Shown in pieces: positions 13,752 to 26,422 of a DNA stretch of 61,367 nt (position 1 is its first letter; each line of letters begins with the position of its first letter). A program made the position numbers and the translations under genes. The notes under the pieces are model-generated. The model was not told the origin of the DNA. It ran no database searches and worked only from the letters and a program-made list of their open reading frames with translations. This DNA is from Alphaproteobacteria bacterium (GTDB taxonomy: Bacteria; Pseudomonadota; Alphaproteobacteria; Micavibrionales; Micavibrionaceae): assembly GCA_024275825.1 (NCBI GenBank), contig JAJRYK010000006.1, forward strand, positions 1-61,367, read 5' to 3'.

Positions 13752-13805
13752 AGGTTTTGGGCGGGTTTAGGCGCGCTTTAAAATTTGAATGTGAAAGACG
13801 AAAAA

Positions 13806-15485
13806 ATGGCATCGTACGAATATGTTTTTGTAATGAACAACCTCACCAAATCTTATGGTGATGGGAAGAAGGTTTTGGAGGATGTCAGCTTAAGCTTTTT
13901 CCCTGGTGCAAAGATTGGCGTACTTGGCCCTAATGGCGCGGGTAAGTCAACCATACTGCGCATTATGGCGGGCATGGATAAGGATTTTGTTGGTGAGGCT
14001 TGGAGCGCAAAGGGCGCGCGCGTTGGTTATCTAGAGCAAGAGCCGCAGCTTGATGAAAGCAAAACTGTCTCTGAAAATGTGATGGAGGGCCTTAGCGATA
14101 TCAAGGCCAAGATTGACCGCTATAACGAAGTCGCCACCGCGATGGCCGATCCGGAGGCTGACTTTGATGCGCTGACCGAGGAAATGGGCAGCCTGCAAGA
14201 AGAGATTGATGCGGTCGATGGCTGGGAAATTGATCGCATGCTTGAGATGGCGATGGAAGCGCTGCGCTGTCCACCCGGCCAAACGCCAGTCACCAATTTA
14301 TCCGGCGGGGAGCGCAGGCGCGTTGCGCTGTGTAAGCTTTTGCTGGAGCGCCCGGACCTCCTCCTGCTCGATGAACCGACCAACCATTTGGACGCGGAAA
14401 GCGTTGCGTGGCTACAGCGATTCTTGAGCGATTACACCGGCACTGTTGTGATGATTACGCATGATCGTTACTTCCTGGATAATGTCACGGGCTGGATTTT
14501 GGAGATTGATCGCGGCAGCGCCATGCCGTATGAGGGCAATTATTCCGCCTATCTTGAGGCCAAGCGTAAACGTCTGCTGCAAGAAGCACGCGAAGAAGAC
14601 ACCAAGGCCAAAACGCTTCAGCGCGAGCAGGACTGGATGGGGCAAAGCCCGTCAGCGCGGCGCTCAAAATCCAAAGCGCGGATTAATACCTATCATGAAT
14701 TGCTGGCCGAGAGCCAAAAAATCGATAAGCGCGGCGCGCAAATCGTTATCCCAACGCCGCCACGTCTAGGTGATTTGGTCATTGAGGCCAATAACATCAA
14801 TAAAGGCTTTGGCGATCATTTACTGATTGACGGCCTGTCCTTCAGCCTGCCGCCCGGCGGCATTGTCGGCGTAATTGGCCCGAACGGTGCGGGGAAAACC
14901 ACATTGTTTAAAATGATCACCGGCGTTGAAAGCCCCGATAGCGGCAGCTTTAAGGTCGGCGACACCGTCAAGCTCGGCTATGTCGATCAAAGCCGTGATA
15001 GTCTGGACCCAAAGAAAAGTGTGTGGGAGGAAATCTCTGGCGGGGTGGATATCATCAAGCTGGGTAAGGTTGAAATGCAATCACGGGCCTACGTATCCGC
15101 CTTTAATTTCCGCCGCGGCGATCAACAGCAATTGGTGGGCGATCTGTCCGGCGGACAGCGCAACCGCGTGCATCTGGCCAAGATGCTCAAGGAAGAGGCC
15201 AACGTCATCCTACTCGATGAACCAACAAATGATCTGGATACTGAAACGCTGGCCGCGCTGGAAGAAGCCATTGAAAACTTCCCCGGCTGCGCGGTGATTA
15301 TCTCTCACGATCGCTGGTTTCTGGATCGTCTTTGTACGCATATCTTGGCATTCGAAGGCGAGTCAAGAGTAGTGTGGTTTGAAGGAAATTACGAAGATTA
15401 TGAAGTGGACCGCAAACGCCGCCTAGGGATAGAAGCCGATACGCCCCACCGCATTAAATATAAGCCTTTGCGCAAGGCTGGGTAA
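13806..15485 (+). CDS. ettA: Energy-dependent translational throttle protein, ABC-F ATPase
   Basis: EttA is a ribosome-bound ABC-F ATPase that gates entry into elongation according to the ATP/ADP ratio. There are two nucleotide-binding domains: GPNGAGKST, LSGGERRRVALCK and LLLLDEPTNHLD in the first; GPNGAGKTT, LSGGQRNRVHLAK and VILLDEPTNDLD in the second. The linker WMGQSPSARRSKSKARI is typical of EttA. The ATG at 13806 (MASYEYVF) is chosen over the TTG at 13785, giving 559 residues, close to E. coli EttA (555). Confidence 0.95.
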   Translation: MASYEYVFVMNNLTKSYGDGKKVLEDVSLSFFPGAKIGVLGPNGAGKSTILRIMAGMDKDFVGEAWSAKGARVGYLEQEPQLDESKTVSENVMEGLSDIKAKIDRYNEVATAMADPEADFDALTEEMGSLQEEIDAVDGWEIDRMLEMAMEALRCPPGQTPVTNLSGGERRRVALCKLLLERPDLLLLDEPTNHLDAESVAWLQRFLSDYTGTVVMITHDRYFLDNVTGWILEIDRGSAMPYEGNYSAYLEAKRKRLLQEAREEDTKAKTLQREQDWMGQSPSARRSKSKARINTYHELLAESQKIDKRGAQIVIPTPPRLGDLVIEANNINKGFGDHLLIDGLSFSLPPGGIVGVIGPNGAGKTTLFKMITGVESPDSGSFKVGDTVKLGYVDQSRDSLDPKKSVWEEISGGVDIIKLGKVEMQSRAYVSAFNFRRGDQQQLVGDLSGGQRNRVHLAKMLKEEANVILLDEPTNDLDTETLAALEEAIENFPGCAVIISHDRWFLDRLCTHILAFEGESRVVWFEGNYEDYEVDRKRRLGIEADTPHRIKYKPLRKAG

Positions 15486-16075: not shown

Positions 16076-19000
16076 GTGCGCGGTAAAACAACAAAAAAAG
16101 TCCTGAAATACACGCTTTTGCCGGGAATATTTCCCAGAGCAAAGAATTTATTCGCGTCCGGTTTCGGCTATATCGCCTTCTTGATGGCCTCTATTTATGG
16201 CTCTGTTCGCCTGTTGCCGCCCAATCATCCATATCTGCAACCCAAAAATATGAAAAAGTTTGGCATTCATCATGTGATTGGTGAAGCGGCGAACCGTCTG
16301 GTCTTCAAAAAAGAGAATGCGGATCAGATTCTGATTTTCTTCACGCTGGTGATGGGATTGGTATTGCTGGTGATGCAATTTGTCCTGATGATTTACGCCT
16401 TTGTCGTTCATCCGGCGCTGGCACAAAGTGTCCAGCCCAGCATCTTTGAAACGCAGAACCCGACATTCGATGTGGCCTTTATGCTGCTGGATCATATTTT
16501 TGGTGTGCCCGATTTATTCGGGTCTTGCGTCAATGCCGGGATCGATTGCACAATGCCACGGGGCGGTCTGCCATCAGACTATGAGCCACCAACAGAGTCT
16601 GCATTACCGCTCCCCTTCCACGTTGCGCTGCACAGCATGTTCAAATTTTATTCCATCGGCCTTTTGCTGGTTGGCGTGATCATCTTCCTGTATTTCATTT
16701 TGGTCGTTGTCGCCGAGACCGCAACAACCGGCACGACGTTCGGACAGCGCTTTGAAAATGGCTGGGTGCCTCTTCGTCTCGTTGTTGCACTGGGATTATT
16801 AGTGCCCATTAATCACGGCTTAAGCAGCGGTCAATACATCACACTTTATGCAGCGAAAATGGGGTCCGGTTTTGCGACGACGGGCTGGATACGGTTTAAC
16901 AACACCATCGCTGACAACATGACAGGCGCGGCGAACCCAACAGGCGAAGAGCAAGCTCTCGTCGCCCTGCCATCTGCACCCAGTATTGCACCGTTGGCGC
17001 AAGCCATTTCATTGGCCCATGCCTGCGCCTATGCCTATTGGAAGACAGAAGGTCATTGGTATTGGAAAAAAAGCGGTGATAGTTGGGTTTATGACAGCAA
17101 TGCGCGTATCGACGATACAACCTCCCTTTACGGCGACCCAAGCTTTCCAGGGAATGAAGATGCACAAATCAAACCCTATCTTGTTAAAAATGTCTTTCCA
17201 TTGATCAGCCGCAACTTGGACACTTTTCAAGAAATAACATCCGATATAAATTATGGTGAGGCTTTGAACTTCTATGATCAGAGTGACATCATCATCCGCT
17301 TTGGGCGGCGACATACTGATATACCGCAGGAAGAAGGGCCGCCCGATCCAAATGATGATCACAATTTTGGCATGTATCGCGGCGGGGTTGAGCCAGTCTG
17401 CGGAGAAATCCGCATTCCCATTTTCGATGCCGGAATTCGTGACGGAGAGCAAGGCCCAACCCAAATTAGCGGGGCTGAGCAAATTCAGTCTTCCTATTTT
17501 GAATTTATAAAACAGCTATGGTTCAATGTTTTCACAAGCACCATGATTGATGGTGACCCGCTGCCGTCTATGGCATTGATGAGCCATCAATACACCGAAA
17601 TTTCCCTGGGCACAAAACCGCACTTGGCCTGTATCGTTGGAAACTGTGACACCTATCCAACGCCCTTTGGCGCCTCTATCACTGTGCCCATAGAAAACCG
17701 TCAAGCCTTGCTCAACATGTATCAACCCATGTTTGCAAATCAGATTGTTACAGCGTGGAATCGCGCTAATCAAAATGCGCAAAATAACTCAGGGATGTCG
17801 GCAGAGATTTTAGCGCGCGGCTGGGGCGGCGCAGGCATTTGGTACAATAAAATCGCCGAAATGAACGGCGTATTTACGAGCGCTGTTTTAAACTTGCCGG
17901 AGTTTTCAAAATACCCGATGCTCATGCAAAAGGTGCTCAAAGAGAAACAAGCGCACGATAGCTATGCCGGTAATTTAAACATGTTCGAGCCCACGCTTTC
18001 TGATGGAAAAGAAATTAAATCCATGACCGCGGAAGAGTTGCGGATTGCGCGTGTTTTGAATGATTTCTTTTTATACTGGAACGGTGATGGCGGCGCAGAT
18101 CAAGCCAAAATGGATAAGATGCTTGAAAGCAACGCCTTCAAAAATATCATGAACCTGATATTCGGCACCAACGGGCTATTTGATATTCGCGACCGGAATG
18201 TTCATATCCACCCCCTTGCGCAATTAACCGCCGTGGGTAAGGCGCTCGTTGATAGCACGATTAAGAATATTGCCGTTTCCTCTGCCTCCGCAGCGCTTGG
18301 CGGCGCGCTCGGGGCCGGGCAAGGGTTTTTAGGACTTGGAAAGCTCTCAACACTCTTTGGTGATTTCCTCATCACGACAGCCTTTGTTGGCGTAACGGCC
18401 GGCTTTGTGCTGTTCTATGTTCTGCCCTTCCTGCCCTTTGTTTACTTTTACTTTGCCGTTGGATCATGGCTTAAAAGTATCTTTGAGGCGATGGTTGGCG
18501 TGCCCCTGTGGGCACTGGCCCACTTACGCATCAGCGGAGAGGGCTTGCCGGGCGAGGCGGCGCAAAATGGTTACTTCCTGATTCTCGAAATTTTCTTAAG
18601 GCCCATTCTCAGCGTCTTTGGCCTCATCGCCTCTCTGGTGATTTTCACTGCGCAAGTGCGGATCATGAATTTTATATGGAGCATCGTCACCGATAATTTA
18701 GCGGGTGGAGAGATTGATCCCACCATAAATTCGACCATTTTAAACATCAGCATCAATCGCGGCATTATAGACGAGTTTTTCTACACCATCATCTACACCA
18801 TTATCATGTATATGTTGGCCACGGCGAGCTTTAAACTCATTGACCGCATACCGGATAATATTTTGCGCTGGACAGGCGCAGGCGTCTCCGCCTTTAGTGA
18901 CATTAATCAGGACCCTGTCGAAGGTCTGACCAAATATGCTGCTCTTGGCGGTTTGACCGTTGGTCAGAAAACGGCAACCGGCATCAAGGATCTATCAGGC

Positions 19001-19078
19001 GGGATTGGTCAAGCTGGTGGACAAGGGATGGACTCGCTTGGTAAATTGTTAGGTGGAACCCCGAAAGGCGGCATATAA
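16076..19078 (+). CDS. DotA/TraY-type inner-membrane secretion protein, paralogue 1
   Basis: The 1000-residue protein has the DotA/TraY layout: a cytoplasmic N-terminus with LLPPNHPYL, a first membrane segment (about 85-110), a second near 190-215 followed by AETATTGTTFGQRF, then a large non-membrane region, and a C-terminal cluster with FYVLPFLPFVYFYFAVGSW, IFEAMVGVPLWALAH and EIFLRPILSVFG. DotA is a polytopic protein of type IVB secretion systems and TraY is its plasmid homologue. HPALAQ after the first segment looks like a signal-peptidase site. The start is a GTG. It is first in a three-gene tandem. Confidence 0.88.
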   Translation: MRGKTTKKVLKYTLLPGIFPRAKNLFASGFGYIAFLMASIYGSVRLLPPNHPYLQPKNMKKFGIHHVIGEAANRLVFKKENADQILIFFTLVMGLVLLVMQFVLMIYAFVVHPALAQSVQPSIFETQNPTFDVAFMLLDHIFGVPDLFGSCVNAGIDCTMPRGGLPSDYEPPTESALPLPFHVALHSMFKFYSIGLLLVGVIIFLYFILVVVAETATTGTTFGQRFENGWVPLRLVVALGLLVPINHGLSSGQYITLYAAKMGSGFATTGWIRFNNTIADNMTGAANPTGEEQALVALPSAPSIAPLAQAISLAHACAYAYWKTEGHWYWKKSGDSWVYDSNARIDDTTSLYGDPSFPGNEDAQIKPYLVKNVFPLISRNLDTFQEITSDINYGEALNFYDQSDIIIRFGRRHTDIPQEEGPPDPNDDHNFGMYRGGVEPVCGEIRIPIFDAGIRDGEQGPTQISGAEQIQSSYFEFIKQLWFNVFTSTMIDGDPLPSMALMSHQYTEISLGTKPHLACIVGNCDTYPTPFGASITVPIENRQALLNMYQPMFANQIVTAWNRANQNAQNNSGMSAEILARGWGGAGIWYNKIAEMNGVFTSAVLNLPEFSKYPMLMQKVLKEKQAHDSYAGNLNMFEPTLSDGKEIKSMTAEELRIARVLNDFFLYWNGDGGADQAKMDKMLESNAFKNIMNLIFGTNGLFDIRDRNVHIHPLAQLTAVGKALVDSTIKNIAVSSASAALGGALGAGQGFLGLGKLSTLFGDFLITTAFVGVTAGFVLFYVLPFLPFVYFYFAVGSWLKSIFEAMVGVPLWALAHLRISGEGLPGEAAQNGYFLILEIFLRPILSVFGLIASLVIFTAQVRIMNFIWSIVTDNLAGGEIDPTINSTILNISINRGIIDEFFYTIIYTIIMYMLATASFKLIDRIPDNILRWTGAGVSAFSDINQDPVEGLTKYAALGGLTVGQKTATGIKDLSGGIGQAGGQGMDSLGKLLGGTPKGGI

Positions 19079-19079
19079 T

Positions 19080-21911
19080 ATGATGAATATTAAAAGCAAA
19101 GATGTCATCAAATATGCCGTACTGCCGGGCATAAGGCCGCGCCTGCAGGATTTAATCACCTCTGGCTTTCAGCATATTCCATTCTTTATGGCGCTGGTAT
19201 ATCAAGCTGTGCGCTTATTACCAAACAACCACCCTTATGCAAATGCGCGCAATATCGGGCGTTTTGGTATTCGGCATGTTATCGCCGAGGCCGCGAATAA
19301 CCTTGTGATCTCCTCCAAAAACATTGACCAGATCCTTTTGTTTTTTACTATTTTATTTGGTTTGGGGTTGATTTTTGTACAGCTGGGCCTACTGGGGATG
19401 TCAATCTTCATTCAGCCGGTTATGGCCGCCGTCGATATGCCGACAAATTTTGCCGGTTTCTTTATAACGCCCGCCGAATATGCTGCGCAAGACTTGGCCT
19501 ATATCTTTATGGATCTCGTGTTTGGTGTGCCAGATATTTTTAATTCTTGCGTCGCGCTAGTAGATACAGATTGCGTATTGAATATCGCAGTTGAAGGAGG
19601 CACCCCGCAGCGCAGCGGTGAATCCCTCGTTGATCCCTGGACCGGATCCGGTATGAGCTGGCCTTTCCCTATCCACCACGCCCTCCATCAAATGTTTAGC
19701 TTGTATAGCATTGGCCTGCTCTCTGTCGCAGTCTTCATCACCGTTTATTTTATCATTGTGATCGTGGTGGAAACTGCGCAAACAGGGACAGCCTTTGGTA
19801 AACGCTTTAACAAGGTCTGGGCACCGATCCGTATTGTGGTCGCCTTTGGCTTGCTCATCCCCGTTGGGCACGGCCTTAATTCATCACAATATATCGTGCT
19901 ATACGCCGCCAAATTTGGCTCCGGCTTTGCCTCGAACGGCTGGGCCATTTTCAACCAAGAGCTCACCGGCACATATTTAGGCCAAAAAGACAAGCTCGTC
20001 ACCCGCCCGAATGTACCAGACGTAACAGAGCTTTTACAATTCATGTATACGGCCGCTGTCTGTTACGAGATGGAATATATTAAAAATGCTGGCCAGAAAG
20101 AAATTATTCCCTACCTTATTGGAGACCCCTTCACAACGCCATTAAATCTGAATGAAATCTCCTTTCTCCCACCAAATGAACGTTACGACCAAATGCTTGA
20201 TTTTGCCACCACACGATCAGGTGGTAGGGCCGTTAGATTTTCTTCAAAGCTATCATTGCGATTTGGTTATTTGGATGAAGATGAAAACTCTGGCAACAGG
20301 GGCGCTGTTAAGCCGGTATGCGGCGAAATAACCATTAACCTATTTGATACACGCGAGGAAGAGACTGATCGAGAACCCGCGGCAGATATGGCGCAAAGAT
20401 ATTATTGGTTCGTCATTAGTGAGCTCTGGTATGATGTTTTCACAGGCATGTTCCCCGGTGATTACAGTATTTCACAATACACTCAGAACTACCCCCTTAA
20501 TCTGGTATGTGAAAAAGCCCCCTATGCTGACGATACGCCCGATTGCCCACCAAATATCAGCTTTGAGCTTCCCGATAGCCAATATCGTGCAGATGTACAA
20601 CAATTTTATACAGATGACCTGAATGCTTTGCTTGATGATCCGGGACTAACCGGTCTTGCTGGCATTGTAAATTCCTCTGTCGGGATGCTTAGAGCACAAA
20701 TCAATTCAGACGAATGGCTAGGCTCCAGCGAAGCCATGCAGGAAAAGGGCTGGGCGGGCGCAGGGCTTTGGTACAATAAAGTTGCAGAGCTAAACGGCAC
20801 CATCAGCGCCGCGATTTCTGATCCGCCTTCCGTATCTCTTTGGCCAGAGATCATGGAACGTACAATGCAAGATAACATTAAAAACGCTGAATTTATTGAT
20901 CTGAAAAATAGATTCAATCCGGCCTATAAAGGCTTTTCACATTTATATGACCGAGAAGGCTATATCCTGTGGGAAGCCTTTGACTATTGGCAAAGTGGTG
21001 CGGGTGCAACTCCGGCAACCAACAATGTTCTGGTTGATACCATCAAGGCACTTTTGGGCACTGAGGGGCTATTCTCTATGCGCAAAAACCCTGATGTACA
21101 TCCATTGGCCTTATTGGTTGGGGTTGGGCGATCCTTGATCAATAGCGCCATTGGCAATTTGGCCGATTCTGCAGCGCTTTCATTGATCTCTGCCGGTATT
21201 GGCGGCTCTCAGGGTATCACAGCCATCACCGGCTTTATCATGACCATTGTGATCATCAGCTTAACGGCCGGGTTTATCCTGTTTTACGTTCTCCCGTTCC
21301 TGCCCTTTATCTATTTCTTCTTCGCCGTTGGCGGCTGGATAAAAGGAATCTTCGAAGCCATGGTCGGTGCGCCGCTTTGGGCCCTGGCGCATATCCGTAT
21401 TGACGGGGACGGGCTCTCTGGCAAAGCCGCGCTCAATGGATATTTCCTGATCTTCGAGATCTTCCTGCGGCCCATTTTAATTGTCTTCGGTATGCTTGCC
21501 AGTATTTCAATCTTCTCGGCGCTTGTTTCTGTCATGAACCAGACATGGGGGCTGGTCACCACAAACCTTGCAGGCTTTGACCCAACAACGGGGGGCCAGG
21601 GTGCTATCGCAGAGGGTGTCGAAATGATGCGCGGGGAGATTGACGCATTCTTCTTTACCGTTATCTACACGATCATTGTTTATCTGATGGCGATGTCATC
21701 CTTTAAACTGATCGATCTGATCCCGAACAACATTTTGCGGTGGATGGGGCAGGCCATTACGACCTTTAATGATGAGGCCGAGAACCCGGCTGAAGGCCTT
21801 ACCGGTAAGGCAGCCATTGGCGCGCAGCAAAGTATTTCCACCATTGGCGGCGGTGCACAAAAAACCCTGCAAGGTATTTCAAGTGGTTCTCCCAAAAAAC
21901 CCGGCGGCTAA
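19080..21911 (+). CDS. DotA/TraY-type inner-membrane secretion protein, paralogue 2
   Basis: From the ATG one base after the previous stop, the 943-residue product repeats the same architecture: LLPNNHPYAN, membrane segment 1 ending in QPVMAAV, AQTGTAFGKRFNKVW, SSQYIVLYAAKFGSGFASNGW, KGWAGAGLWYNKVAELNG and the C-terminal FYVLPFLPFIYFFFAV, APLWALAHIRIDG and EIFLRPILIVFG. Cys residues in FNSCV and PVCGEI are shared with the other copies. The overlap-level spacing makes co-translation likely. The large loop is the least conserved part. Confidence 0.88.
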   Translation: MMNIKSKDVIKYAVLPGIRPRLQDLITSGFQHIPFFMALVYQAVRLLPNNHPYANARNIGRFGIRHVIAEAANNLVISSKNIDQILLFFTILFGLGLIFVQLGLLGMSIFIQPVMAAVDMPTNFAGFFITPAEYAAQDLAYIFMDLVFGVPDIFNSCVALVDTDCVLNIAVEGGTPQRSGESLVDPWTGSGMSWPFPIHHALHQMFSLYSIGLLSVAVFITVYFIIVIVVETAQTGTAFGKRFNKVWAPIRIVVAFGLLIPVGHGLNSSQYIVLYAAKFGSGFASNGWAIFNQELTGTYLGQKDKLVTRPNVPDVTELLQFMYTAAVCYEMEYIKNAGQKEIIPYLIGDPFTTPLNLNEISFLPPNERYDQMLDFATTRSGGRAVRFSSKLSLRFGYLDEDENSGNRGAVKPVCGEITINLFDTREEETDREPAADMAQRYYWFVISELWYDVFTGMFPGDYSISQYTQNYPLNLVCEKAPYADDTPDCPPNISFELPDSQYRADVQQFYTDDLNALLDDPGLTGLAGIVNSSVGMLRAQINSDEWLGSSEAMQEKGWAGAGLWYNKVAELNGTISAAISDPPSVSLWPEIMERTMQDNIKNAEFIDLKNRFNPAYKGFSHLYDREGYILWEAFDYWQSGAGATPATNNVLVDTIKALLGTEGLFSMRKNPDVHPLALLVGVGRSLINSAIGNLADSAALSLISAGIGGSQGITAITGFIMTIVIISLTAGFILFYVLPFLPFIYFFFAVGGWIKGIFEAMVGAPLWALAHIRIDGDGLSGKAALNGYFLIFEIFLRPILIVFGMLASISIFSALVSVMNQTWGLVTTNLAGFDPTTGGQGAIAEGVEMMRGEIDAFFFTVIYTIIVYLMAMSSFKLIDLIPNNILRWMGQAITTFNDEAENPAEGLTGKAAIGAQQSISTIGGGAQKTLQGISSGSPKKPGG

Positions 21912-21934
21912 AAATAATATTGGAATAACAAATA

Positions 21935-24733
21935 ATGGCGATCAAAAAAGAGCTGATAAAATACGCTTTGCTACCGCAGTTTTTGCCGCGGCTATCGGCT
22001 TTATTTACCAATATGTTCGCGCACACAGCCTTTTTGATTGCCGTCATTTACGGCTCTCTCCGGCTCTTACCGCCCACACACCCCTATCTTAACCCGCAAA
22101 ACTTCGGACGATTTGGCCTGCGCCATGTGGTTTCCGAAGCCGCAAATAATCTGGTGCTCAGCAAAAAGAACATTGATCAAATTGTCGTATTTTTCTCTGT
22201 TTTAACCGGCTTGGTTTTACTGCTCATACAATTCGTCTTACTGATCATGGCGGTAACAACGCAGCCCGCCTTCGCGGCCGCCGCCAGCGACGCATTTTTA
22301 ACCTTCGCTGATGTATTAAACGTCGGTTCACAATACGCGCCGCAAAGCGGTCATCCGGACCAAGATCTAGCCTTCATCATCCTGGACAAAGTCTTCGGGG
22401 TAAAGGGCATTTTTGATTCATGTATTTCCACAGGCGTAACGTGCCTGGGGCTGGACGGGCGGCCTATAAATATCGATATCAATGGCAATGCTCTGCCATC
22501 TGATCCGTTTCCCATGCCCTTTCATGTTGCTCTGCATTCCATGTTGCGTTTTTACTCGCTGGGCATTTTTGTTGTTTCTGTTTTCATCATCCTGTATTTC
22601 ATCATTGCGATCACAGCAGAGACCGCATCAACCGGCACCCCCTTTGGACAGCGCTTTAACAAAACCTGGGTTCCTGTGCGGGTCATTCTTTTTGCCGCGC
22701 TTTTGGTGCCGCTCAATATCGGTGGGCAAAATGCTGGTATAAACAGTGCGCAGCTTATTGTGCTCTGGACCGCAAAAACTGGCTCCAACTTCGCCACAAA
22801 TGCATGGGGGTATTTCAACCGTACACTCACAGAATCCTATATCGCGGGCATTGGCGGCGGCGCAGAAGGCGTGGGAACGCCCGGCGGCGATTCCAAAAAC
22901 CTGATCGCCACGCCCAATATTCCAGAAATTAGAAGCCTCGCCCAGTTCCTCTATACAGCCAGAGCGTGCAAAATCGCTGAAGAATCGATGTATAATCACC
23001 TGCATTGGGATTCCTATGACGAAGGCAATACGCGCCGTTACAGATTAGATGGCATACAGGCCTATCTCGTCAGAAATAACGCCCCGGAAGGAGAGCTTGA
23101 TCATATCCTGTACAGCGCCACAGATTTCCGCCAAGCCGCCGCCTTTTCTAGATATGACACAATGAATATCGTATTTGGCACGCACATTGATGAAAATAGC
23201 GGCCAATCAAAAGCGCGCCTTGATCAGGCCAAAAAATACCCCGGCAATGTCATTCCCTATTGTGGATCTCTGCGTTTTAAAATCATGAAAGTTGATGCAG
23301 AGGGCGAACCGGAGTCAGGCGCAAACGGTATACAGGCCCTTTATTACAGCGCGGTTGAAGAAATATGGACGGATCAGGATTTAATTAATCGCGCCTGTGG
23401 TCAGGTTGACCGTATGCTGCCGGTTATCCTCGACCCGCCATGCGATATTGCCGTCCCACCGCCCGACAAAGCCTTCACCGTTGCTATTTTAACGCGGTTT
23501 GAGGAAAGGATAAGGAGCGAACTGCAAGCGCTCATCGCCCAGCAGGTCGGACAGGACTGGGATATCAATGGCCGCCTTGAATCCAAGGGCTGGGTCGGCG
23601 CGGCGCTGTGGTACAACCGCATTGCCGAGCTGAACGGTGACATAGCTAATGTCGTACAAAACACGCCTCAGCCAAAGGATTATCCGCATGTGATGGAGGC
23701 CGTTAAGGACATGCGCACAGCCACAAACGATTTTAGTGACATGCTCGCCGTTTTTGATCCTGTCCTGCCTGATGATCAAAAAGTGCGCTTTCGGCGCGAG
23801 GGTGATGAACAGATTGCATCCGCCATGTATGCCGCCTTTAAAGTTTGGGGTGATGATGACCGGATAACGGGTAATATTTTTGTCGATTTTGTAAATGCTA
23901 TTTTCGGAACAAGCGCCATTTTTGAAATGCGCCGCAACACCGACATTCATCCTCTGGCGCAGCTCAGCGCGCTGGGGAAATCGATGATGGAGGCCTCGGT
24001 GCGCAATATTGCGCTTGGCTTGCCTGGTGAAATGCTTTTACAATCCGCCAACACCTTCCCGGGGCAGCTTGGTAAAGCCGCCGCCAGTTTTCTTAAAACC
24101 ATAGGCACTGCGACGCTGGCGATGAGCTTCGTCATGTATTACGTGCTCCCCTTCCTGCCCTTCATCTATTTCATTTTTGCCGTCAGCGGCTGGATCAAAA
24201 GCATCTTTGAAGCTATTGTTGCCATGCCGCTTTGGGCGCTGGCCCATATTAAAATCGATGGTGAAGGTATTGGCGGACCGGCCGCGGTCAATGGGTATTT
24301 TCTGATCTTTGAGATTTTCCTGCGCCCTATTTTGATCCTCTTTGGTTTGCTGTCCAGCATCGCGATTTTTAGTGCGCTGGTCACTGTCCTTAATGACGGC
24401 CTGTTCGAGCTCATCGTGCAAAATACAACCGGATTTGATCATGGCGCCGTTACCGAAGGTATAGAAGGTGTGAGCATTGACTCTGCCCGCGGACCGATTG
24501 ATCAATTCTTCTTCACCGCTATGTATGTGATTATTGTTTATATGATCGGCATTGGCTGTTTTAAGCTTATTGATCATATTCCAAACACCATTCTGCGGTG
24601 GGCCGGTAACGCCACAAAGACCTTCCAGGAAGGTGCGGGTGATCCTGCCGGTCAAGTGACACAGAAAACCTATAGCGGCGCCGTTCTCGCCACCGGACAG
24701 GTGCAGGGCGGCGCGCTGGCCGCGCTTGGCTAA
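21935..24733 (+). CDS. DotA/TraY-type inner-membrane secretion protein, paralogue 3
   Basis: The 932-residue third copy has LLPPTHPYLNPQNFGRFGLR at the N-terminus, membrane segment 1 ending in QPAFAAA, AETASTGTPFGQRFNKTW, SAQLIVLWTAKTGSNFATNAW, KGWVGAALWYNRIAELNGD and HPLAQLSALGKSM. The C-terminal block has FYVLPFLPF-like YYVLPFLPFIYFIFAVSGW, MPLWALAHIKIDGEG and EIFLRPILILFG. It lies 23 bases after copy 2. The divergence between copies looks old, not a recent duplication. No clear terminator follows before the convergent mlaC. Confidence 0.88.
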   Translation: MAIKKELIKYALLPQFLPRLSALFTNMFAHTAFLIAVIYGSLRLLPPTHPYLNPQNFGRFGLRHVVSEAANNLVLSKKNIDQIVVFFSVLTGLVLLLIQFVLLIMAVTTQPAFAAAASDAFLTFADVLNVGSQYAPQSGHPDQDLAFIILDKVFGVKGIFDSCISTGVTCLGLDGRPINIDINGNALPSDPFPMPFHVALHSMLRFYSLGIFVVSVFIILYFIIAITAETASTGTPFGQRFNKTWVPVRVILFAALLVPLNIGGQNAGINSAQLIVLWTAKTGSNFATNAWGYFNRTLTESYIAGIGGGAEGVGTPGGDSKNLIATPNIPEIRSLAQFLYTARACKIAEESMYNHLHWDSYDEGNTRRYRLDGIQAYLVRNNAPEGELDHILYSATDFRQAAAFSRYDTMNIVFGTHIDENSGQSKARLDQAKKYPGNVIPYCGSLRFKIMKVDAEGEPESGANGIQALYYSAVEEIWTDQDLINRACGQVDRMLPVILDPPCDIAVPPPDKAFTVAILTRFEERIRSELQALIAQQVGQDWDINGRLESKGWVGAALWYNRIAELNGDIANVVQNTPQPKDYPHVMEAVKDMRTATNDFSDMLAVFDPVLPDDQKVRFRREGDEQIASAMYAAFKVWGDDDRITGNIFVDFVNAIFGTSAIFEMRRNTDIHPLAQLSALGKSMMEASVRNIALGLPGEMLLQSANTFPGQLGKAAASFLKTIGTATLAMSFVMYYVLPFLPFIYFIFAVSGWIKSIFEAIVAMPLWALAHIKIDGEGIGGPAAVNGYFLIFEIFLRPILILFGLLSSIAIFSALVTVLNDGLFELIVQNTTGFDHGAVTEGIEGVSIDSARGPIDQFFFTAMYVIIVYMIGIGCFKLIDHIPNTILRWAGNATKTFQEGAGDPAGQVTQKTYSGAVLATGQVQGGALAALG

Positions 24734-24779: not shown

Positions 24780-25445
24780 TTATTTCTTAAGCTCAGCCAA
24801 CAGCACATCAACGCTACCGCCGCCGCGCTGAATAACCGATGAGAAATCAGAGCGCTGCGTCAGCGCCATGCTGACCCCCGCGACAACGACATCTATAACT
24901 TTATATCGACCATTTTTATATCGTACGCGCCAATCAAGCCGAACCTCTGGCTCACCACCCTTAATGATGGATGTCACAAGCACATCAGATTTACCCTCTG
25001 CGCGCGCGCTTTTGATCTCTAGCTTCTGGCCGCCATATTCACTAAAGCGCGACGCATAAACCTCAACCACCATCTGTTTAAAGAGCTTCAGATATTCTTT
25101 TTGCTGCGCCGGGCTGGCTGTTCTCCAATAGCGTCCCAAGGCAAAGCGGCCAATGGTCTCCATATCAAAGCTGTCGCTTAGTAATTTTTTAAACTCTTTC
25201 TCGCGCTGTTCTTGTGAGAGCTCTTCACCATCGAGAAAGCTTATACCGCGCTCAGCCACAGCACTGATAAAGACTTCAGCGCCCTTAATGGTTTTGTCAC
25301 TCGCCGCCGCTAAAATGATTGATGATGATTGCCTCACCACCTGCGGTGATGCCGGAGAAAGCGCATAAGACGGCGCGCTTAATAGCCCAAGCGCCGACGA
25401 TAAAAGTGCGAAAGAGAAAACAGTCTTAATAGTCATCCCAACCAT
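24780..25445 (-). CDS. mlaC: MlaC-family periplasmic phospholipid-binding protein
   Basis: MlaC carries phospholipids across the periplasm in the Mla pathway. The N-terminus is a signal peptide (cleavage near APSYA). The mature part matches the Ttg2D/MlaC family: LLSDSFDMETIGRFALGRYW, KQMVVEVYASRFSEYGGQKL and WRVRYKNGRYKVIDVVVAGVSM. The frame opens at 25457, but GAAGAAGG lies directly before the ATG at 25445, and another ATG at 25436 is possible. All three overlap the 3' end of mlaA, so the pair is one operon. Confidence 0.92.
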   Translation of the reverse strand: MVGMTIKTVFSFALLSSALGLLSAPSYALSPASPQVVRQSSSIILAAASDKTIKGAEVFISAVAERGISFLDGEELSQEQREKEFKKLLSDSFDMETIGRFALGRYWRTASPAQQKEYLKLFKQMVVEVYASRFSEYGGQKLEIKSARAEGKSDVLVTSIIKGGEPEVRLDWRVRYKNGRYKVIDVVVAGVSMALTQRSDFSSVIQRGGGSVDVLLAELKK

Positions 25446-26205
25446 AACCTTCTTCAACTACAGAAGCGCTGCTAGAAAGTCGCTCACTGCTTTGGTCCTT
25501 AACCATCGCATCACGATTTTGATAGTACGCACTCCGCACAGCAGCATAATAATCAATCGAGCTGGAATCAAGGTCACGCAGGACATCCATTAAAGAATCA
25601 CGCAAGTTCAAATAATCAAGCCCAGCCTTAATATAATACCATTCTTCCTCGTCAATATTGTTTGCATACCAGCGCAGGGGATCTGCAAATGCATCAACAA
25701 CGAAGCCCGTACCATCACGCACAGATGCGGGGCCAAAGAACGGCACAACCATATAAGCGCCATGATCAACACCCCAAACGGCGAGCGTCTGACCAAAATC
25801 TTCCGGCTCATATTCAATGCCCTCATACCCGGCAACATCAAAGAGACCACCAACGCCGACAAAGGTATTTACAACAGTGCGTATAACAACAGTGCCCGCA
25901 CCATCCAGATCACCCTGTAAAAGCTGATTGGCAAGCCTCATAGGGCTTTTTAAATGACGAAGGAAATTCCGCAGACCAGTGCGCGCCAGCTCTGGCACAA
26001 CATAGCGATACCCCTCAATAATCGGATGAATAACGGCATCGTCAACAGCGCTGTTAAACGCAAAAATGCTGCGGTTTGTTTCCTCAAAAGGATCGTGGAT
26101 TTCAATGCCACCGACATTAATTTTTGTGTCTTGCGCGCTACCACACGACGCCATCACAAAGGATGCGCCAACCAAAAAAACCAGCTTAGATATAGTATTC
26201 TTCAT
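25426..26205 (-). CDS. mlaA: MlaA-family outer-membrane lipoprotein
   Basis: MlaA removes mislocalised phospholipids from the outer leaflet of the outer membrane and passes them to MlaC. The ATG at 26205 is preceded by AAAGAGA and gives a lipoprotein signal with VMASCGS as lipobox. The family segment DPFEETNRSIFAFN follows near residue 40, then LRNFLRHLKSPMRLANQLLQ, FGQTLAVWGVDHGAYMVVPF and SVRDGTGFVVDAFADP. The C-terminal tail is acidic. It overlaps mlaC by about 20 bases. Confidence 0.95.
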   Translation of the reverse strand: MKNTISKLVFLVGASFVMASCGSAQDTKINVGGIEIHDPFEETNRSIFAFNSAVDDAVIHPIIEGYRYVVPELARTGLRNFLRHLKSPMRLANQLLQGDLDGAGTVVIRTVVNTFVGVGGLFDVAGYEGIEYEPEDFGQTLAVWGVDHGAYMVVPFFGPASVRDGTGFVVDAFADPLRWYANNIDEEEWYYIKAGLDYLNLRDSLMDVLRDLDSSSIDYYAAVRSAYYQNRDAMVKDQSSERLSSSASVVEEGYGWDDY

Positions 26206-26422
26206 ATGTATCTCTTTTTTCGCGCGATATACGCCTATTTTATTCATAGCTTTAACCCTTAATATCTGTGTGATATTAGCTCCCAAGTCAATGTCTTAAT
26301 TCATTTTTATATGATTTTATAACGCAGTGTGGCGCGAAATCCCTCTTCGCCCATCCAGTAGACCATGAATGCCTTACCAGAAGATTAATGGGGGTAAAGT
26401 TTCATTTCAAATTTTATCTATC

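Follow-up and report, generated by a model that had tools for sequence, protein, structure and literature searches.

Type IV secretion has at its inner-membrane heart a protein of the VirB6/DotA class. The solved examples, from Legionella and R388, are pentamers of one subunit type, at least as the available parts of the literature describe them. Why, then, would a bacterium carry three diverged DotA-like genes side by side? The question was raised by a stretch of 61,367 nucleotides from a member of the Micavibrionaceae, and by "the window" we mean this whole stretch. The original prediction was that three consecutive genes in it share the layout of DotA/TraY, that no other secretion gene adjoins them, and that they may form a hetero-oligomeric or specialised channel or be alternative subunits. 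A family in which three diverged copies are found, together with parallel expansions in other groups, is a natural test of whether the ring must be symmetric and of what asymmetry buys.

Three diverged members of the DotA/TraY family

The open reading frames are as claimed: three consecutive genes on the + strand, of 1000, 943, and 932 residues, with gaps of 1 and 23 bases. Together with the neighbours that recur around such loci, they are:

13785 to 15485, + strand: ABC-F ATPase (two ABC_tran stretches and ABC_tran_Xtn), recurrent upstream neighbour; a marker of the locus and not a part of the machine
16076 to 19078, + strand: DotA/TraY paralogue, copy 1 (1000 amino acids, GTG start)
19080 to 21911, + strand: DotA/TraY paralogue, copy 2 (943 amino acids from the ATG at 19080)
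21935 to 24733, + strand: DotA/TraY paralogue, copy 3 (932 amino acids)
24780 to 25457, - strand: MlaC (PF05494, 1.7e-44), recurrent downstream neighbour and locus marker
25426 to 26286, - strand: MlaA (PF04333, 5.6e-66), recurrent downstream neighbour and locus marker

If copy 2 began instead at its first GTG, at 19053, it would have 952 amino acids (19053-21911) and would overlap copy 1. The motifs that the three proteins were said to share are present in all three translations, except that LLPP-HPY reads LLPN-HPY in copy 2.

The assignment to DotA/TraY holds up in a profile search. Against TIGR04346 (DotA_TraY), copies 1, 2, and 3 score 258.8, 274.2, and 217.9 bits, all above the curated cut-off of 100. 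Against NF033886, the model for the Legionella DotA equivalog, they score 184.6, 193.2, and 149.7 bits, and the cut-off is 500. By these scores the three proteins are members of the DotA/TraY family and not Legionella-type equivalogs. Pfam's DotA family (PF11388) matched nothing, including the controls, so it is uninformative. The DotA entries in the PDB represent one distinct DotA sequence, and phmmer relates all three copies to it (9ngy; E = 1.1e-15, 5.2e-18, and 2.6e-14). Among the best 80 of 195 matches, the closest named relatives of the copies are Micavibrio sp. and alphaproteobacterial metagenome-assembled genomes. The pairwise identities of the three copies are just 45%, 42%, and 43%, so they are not near-identical duplicates produced by the assembly, and we saw no sign that any of them is a pseudogene.

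Structure prediction points the same way. The AlphaFold models of copy 1 (pLDDT 78.8, pTM 0.74) and copy 3 (pLDDT 76.8, pTM 0.67) both have as their best structural match 9ngy, the DotA-IcmX protochannel of Legionella (Z = 21.9 over 605 residues with an rmsd of 7.0 for copy 1; Z = 20.8 over 577 residues with an rmsd of 7.2 for copy 3). The structure alignments have 52 and 48 rows, including the window's copies, and were picked from 143 complete open reading frames plus the window. Foldseek also relates copy 3 to 9ngy (E = 1.6e-13, TM 0.44/0.47, rmsd 13). Copies 1 and 3 are thus predicted to have the fold of Legionella DotA; copy 2 is assigned by its sequence match alone. For both models, the next structural rows include VirB6/TrwI of R388, at Z of about 10. 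In the list for copy 1, R388 VirB6 (Z = 10.2) is level with an unrelated sodium-calcium exchanger (Z = 9.8), so the VirB6 match is weak by itself and only the DotA match stands out. In both models, the alignment to 9ngy does not cover residues 1 to about 118, an N-terminal module with two long predicted helices.

The rest of the machine lies on other contigs

The triplet's immediate flanks hold an ECF-type sigma factor and the ABC-F ATPase (presumably EttA-like) upstream, and MlaC, MlaA, two LptF/LptG proteins, and an M17 peptidase downstream. As predicted, there is no other secretion gene in the flanks that we scanned, and searches of the source genome found no DotH, DotI, DotB-like ATPase, or TraG-D_C match on this contig. 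The isolation is only local, though: the genome (1.92 Mb in 55 contigs, with the window's triplet as the only DotA genes found) encodes a type IVB machine on other contigs. Contig C38 encodes DotD, DotC, a DotB-like ATPase, IcmT, and two proteins of which one has an SLT domain and the other is DsbG-like. These are followed by DotI, DotH, DotG, DotF, a TraQ-like protein, a 133-amino-acid protein, DotN, and a 1002-amino-acid protein with a weak match to VirB4. Contig C54 encodes DotM and a coupling protein that resembles DotL/TrbC.

From these matches we recognise the envelope core of a type IVB system (DotC, DotD, DotG, DotH, and DotF), with DotF (46.6 of 200 bits) and DotG (179.4 of 750 bits) falling short of the equivalog cut-offs. 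We also recognise DotI, ATPases of the DotB and DotO types, and coupling proteins like DotL, DotM, and DotN, several of which are below their equivalog cut-offs. DotI is above its cut-off, at 221.6 bits; those below are DotB (403.5 of 463.3), DotN (99.9 of 100), the TrbC/DotL-like protein (363.2 of 800), and DotM (153.1 of 230). The putative DotO is the 1002-amino-acid protein, whose VirB4 match scores 19.6 bits and whose assignment rests on gene order. Searches of the PDB with the genes for the TraQ-like and DotO-like proteins, singly and as profiles, gave nothing useful. There is a second and weaker DotI-like gene (59.5 bits; G000:C51:31865-32305, locus L008), which we take to be a possible counterpart of Legionella's DotJ. 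Next to the DotL- and DotM-like genes on C54 are a Fic-domain protein (PF02661; L194:6680-7579) and a 165-amino-acid protein of no assigned family (L194:5258-5755), and both are candidate substrates of the machine.

One feature of the source genome gives us pause. As assembled, the reading frame of DotH (C38, L086:6188-7414) contains one in-frame TAG, which may be an assembly error or may mean that this strain's machine is broken. Among the other 86 DotH matches that we collected, only the one in G063 has an in-frame TAG, and it is at a different place. The differing positions make recoding or conserved readthrough of TAG unlikely.

A general scan of genes on the contigs with Dot genes recognised no IcmX and no IcmS or IcmW. 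The lack of IcmX among the recognised genes would suit a division of roles in which one copy serves as the channel and the rest act as gating, plug-like, or surface-exposed factors. The helical module that the Legionella alignment does not cover would also fit this idea, as would the surface exposure of some VirB6 paralogues in the Rickettsiales, which is described in the portion of PMC7648143 available to us. On the other hand, all three copies have the same conserved motifs and match the channel region, and none has lost the channel part, so we think such a division very unlikely.

Copy number in the family and beyond

Is the triplet peculiar to one assembly? Among 95 genomes, including the source genome, DotA was found in 88 and DotH in 87, and all of those 87 have a single DotH. 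Within the window's own family, DotA is present in 58 of 61 genomes, again counting the source. From the other 57 DotA-positive genomes of the family we took 38 loci, choosing clusters that lie on one contig. Including the window, 36 of these 39 loci have three copies and the remaining three (G026, G045, and G057) have four, with one strand per locus. The copies are closely packed: across the 38 loci, the median of 79 gaps is 25 bases, and 66 of the 79 are at most 60 bases. In the locus of G046, the contig ends within the first copy, and the third copy is split.

The genomes outside the 39 loci are harder to read. G032 has three copies in tandem, G034 has five matches on two contigs, and G048 has pieces of DotA on two contigs. 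G044 and G047 have two partial matches and one, respectively, on broken contigs, so these two might have fewer than three copies. DotA was absent or fragmentary in seven of the 95 genomes: G024, G037, and G060, which belong to the window's family; G088, G089, and G082, from other families; and G076, which has just a fragment at the end of a contig. In G024, G037, and G060, even a search with our profile A1 found no DotA. Nor did a search for the neighbouring MlaA, which does detect the gene in G051, find it in any of the three. The locus therefore seems to be absent from those assemblies, and a real loss is possible too.

We also considered whether DotA copies had fused, as apparent open frames of about 1810-1880 amino acids in four genomes (G033, G035, G039, and G011) would imply. 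Such fusions would have shown directly that copies assemble together. We dropped this reading because all 12 copies in those four loci end in their own TAA, TAG, or TGA.

Beyond the family, one copy is the norm, as the original prediction had supposed. On plasmids, we found 3,724 matching places in 3,708 records, or about one each. In a sample of the class, DotA is present in 17 of 385 genomes, 13 of them outside the family. Nine of these 13 have a single DotA; G194 has two distant copies, G195 has one copy plus fragments, and G312 and G400 have neighbouring pairs. In a sample of the phylum, 13 of 398 genomes (the source included) have a match. Of the other 12, G695 has two partial matches, each on a different contig, and the remaining 11 have one match each, below the cut-off in two cases. 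The two neighbouring pairs lie among housekeeping genes: enolase and ftsZ in G312 (L190:3162-9052), and alaS and succinyl-CoA ligase in G400 (L191:3799-11025). No other Dot genes were recognised in the stretches that we fetched around these pairs.

Within the order, two other families have multi-copy loci: f3, with four copies in G074, and f5, with two. In a 147-row FastTree phylogeny these are expansions separate from that of the window's family. Two arrays from one other family of the order (L072:9129-13319 in G074 and L075:6411-10562 in G094) have a third member of about 1390 amino acids, which is some 300-400 residues more than its neighbours.

These counts bear on whether the three proteins are alternatives, with each copy forming its own homopentamer so that the DotA ring in use would vary with the prey, the substrate, or the phase of the cycle. 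Every copy retains the full length of DotA and its match to the family, copies 1 and 3 keep the fold in their models, and there are alignment columns specific to the copies (see below). Also, one core could accept any ring, given that relatives in the order pair a single DotA with a single DotH. But contiguous genes on one strand with a median gap of 25 bases suggest joint expression, and alternative subunits should have been lost in some lineages, yet all 39 family loci that we examined have at least three. We consider separate rings rather unlikely.

A probable expansion in place

Of 58 DotA loci, the window's included, 38 have an ABC-F-type ATPase in their flanks, 30 have MlaA, and 29 have MlaC. 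The same neighbours surround single copies: the Mla pair adjoins a lone DotA in two genomes of a sister family (G071 and G067), and G071 has the ABC-F gene as well. So the triplet looks like an expansion that took place within an existing chromosomal locus. The conserved chromosomal setting also speaks against a mobile element. G067 links the locus to the machine, since its single DotA is directly next to DotF, DotG, DotH, and DotI.

The middle gene and the divergence of the copies

How did the copies arise, and do they differ in function? We inferred a 51-row maximum-likelihood tree from 45 copies (15 of the 39 family genomes) and 6 of 27 outgroup rows. Our trees and column statistics exclude open reading frames with fewer than 780 amino acids or scores under 150 bits, which removes the 175-amino-acid piece of the split third copy in G046 and, from L075 and L083, some short pieces. 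The 51-row tree treats G069 as single-copy, although its locus has a second copy truncated by the contig's end.

The 45 copies from the family group in one clade, and the six outgroup DotAs fall outside it (support 100/98). Copy 1 is a single group in 11 of the 15 sampled genomes. In G002, G003, G017, and G018, the middle copy groups with copy-1 types, with moderate support (86/70 and 88/86); elsewhere it groups with copy-3 types (99/99); and in G051, G030, and G039, copies 2 and 3 are each other's closest relatives. An AU test, run after we had seen the tree, rejects the grouping of all middle copies in one clade (p-AU = 6e-134), so the middle copy arose or was overwritten more than once. Despite this shifting middle gene, none of the 39 family loci that we examined has fewer than three copies.

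Each copy appears to be under strong purifying selection. Between G022 and G051, copies 1, 2, and 3 have dN of 0.010, 0.010, and 0.016 and dS of 0.53, 0.46, and 0.49, for ratios of about 0.02-0.03. This is one pair of genomes; in two more distant pairs dS was not usable, and the conclusion is for G022 and G051 alone.

The copies also keep their identities by position: for 117 of 120 copies, the nearest foreign sequence is at the same position. The copy label explains 121 of 784 alignment columns beyond the 95% permuted maximum, in a permutation that ignores relatedness among the genomes. Copy-informative columns make up 28% of TM3, 36% of the short helix that follows it, 21% of TM4, and 43% of the C-terminal tail, and 11% of the central domain. 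This does not bear out the original argument, in which differing central domains suggested a hetero-oligomeric or specialised channel, or alternative subunits. Central domains are 30-32% identical among orthologues of one copy and 28-30% identical among the copies within a genome, so their divergence is not specific to the copies.

Overall, paralogues in the same genome are 39-41% identical and orthologues at the same position are 41-42% identical, and no column satisfies a strict test of specificity. The specialisation of the copies therefore seems modest, and some of the differences between them may be inherited instead of functional. Could the three simply be exchangeable subunits that are kept for their amount, with no division of labour? 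Near-equal similarity of paralogues and orthologues, the absence of strictly specific columns, and a middle copy with lineage-specific origins or replacements are what we would expect if so. Dosage alone would, however, favour near-identical copies, and those in the window are only 42-45% identical; the positional orthology and the 121 informative columns also speak against it. We regard dosage as quite unlikely.

How three DotA proteins might work together

Our preferred explanation is that the three genes encode co-expressed VirB6-class subunits of one chromosomal type IVB machine and that these assemble into a mixed DotA ring. We would judge this to be about evenly poised between right and wrong. 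Joint expression is suggested by the tight spacing on one strand, and joint assembly in a mixed ring would best explain why three co-encoded and individually constrained DotA genes accompany a single DotH. The recurrent expansions (in f3 and f5 of the order and in the pairs of G312 and G400) and the precedent in the Rickettsiales also count in favour. Against it, a five-fold ring cannot be shared evenly by three subunits. The existence of single-copy relatives within the order suggests that one DotA may suffice for the machine, and the modest specialisation of the copies counts against a mixed ring too. So the hetero-oligomeric or specialised channel of the original prediction is still the best reading, with co-assembly as an inference and without the help of the central domains.

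If the ring is mixed, copies 1, 2, and 3 would be expressed together and would assemble in the inner membrane, with each copy filling non-equivalent positions so that the symmetry of the protochannel is broken. The protochannel would receive substrates from the cytoplasmic ATPases (DotB-like and VirB4/DotO-like) and from the coupling complex (the DotL-like protein, DotM, and DotN), and the substrates would go on to the envelope core of DotC, DotD, DotH, and DotG. Delivery of proteins into prey is a likely use, to judge solely from the lifestyle of these obligate epibiotic predators.

More tentatively, we propose that predators of the Micavibrio group have an obligately hetero-oligomeric DotA protochannel, that it needs three or more non-identical VirB6-class subunits, and that their number is maintained by repeated replacement of the middle gene. 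The type IVB machines of this order would then have converged several times on a mixed channel of the sort that the Rickettsiales may have in type IVA, possibly in connection with injecting a cell that the bacterium needs. We think this broader proposal is somewhat more apt to be wrong than right.

The predator ARL-13

A putative genome of the cultured strain M. aeruginosavorus ARL-13 (G051) has the triplet, with 913, 920, and 897 amino acids, and an operon with DotI, DotH, DotG, DotF, the TraQ-like protein, the 133-amino-acid protein, DotN, and the VirB4-like protein (L175:1906-13009). Although the available part of the 2011 paper on the ARL-13 genome reports no evidence of a type IV secretion system (PMC3189940), these core Dot genes run against that statement. 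A predatory lineage thus gains a plausible machine for injection, encoded in a genome that is putatively that of ARL-13.

Comparison with known systems

A 2022 paper reported pT4SSi in seven marine Micavibrionales (PMC9418006), so the presence of a machine in this group is not new; those are Micavibrio-type bacteria with the same class of machine. In the part of that article available to us, the Micavibrionales are only counted, and DotA does not occur in the main text. The tandem DotA triplet is not described in the open-licence literature that we searched, in so far as its text was available.

The system resembles Legionella's Dot/Icm in the family and predicted fold of its DotA proteins and in having DotC, DotD, DotH, DotI, IcmT, genes like DotF, DotG, DotB, DotL, DotM, and DotN, and a VirB4-like ATPase. 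Unlike Legionella, which has one DotA, it has three paralogues, with an extra N-terminal helical module and scores of 150-193 bits where the DotA equivalog requires 500, and IcmX is not among the genes recognised. DotA and IcmX of Legionella form a pentameric protochannel (Yue et al. 2025, as relayed in the accessible parts of two reviews), and VirB6 of R388 is also pentameric according to these reviews; the DotA models of copies 1 and 3 also align with R388 VirB6.

TraY of IncI-type plasmids is a homologue of DotA, and genes like TraP, TraQ, TraO, TraK, and TrbC are present here. The order of the Dot genes in the source genome presumably resembles that of R64. But plasmid records with a match hold about one matching place each, whereas here there are three copies in a chromosomal locus among housekeeping genes.

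By analogy, the nearest precedent for the triplet would be the tandem VirB6 set of the rvh system in Rickettsiales: four paralogues in Anaplasmataceae and five in Rickettsiaceae, some of them with large extensions, according to the available text of PMC7648143. That system is of type IVA, and its paralogues are more divergent than the DotA copies, with about 80% amino-acid divergence in the VirB6 domain (PMC2653234, from the part available). Still, in both cases an alphaproteobacterial lineage that depends on other cells has multiplied, in tandem, a channel subunit of the VirB6 class.
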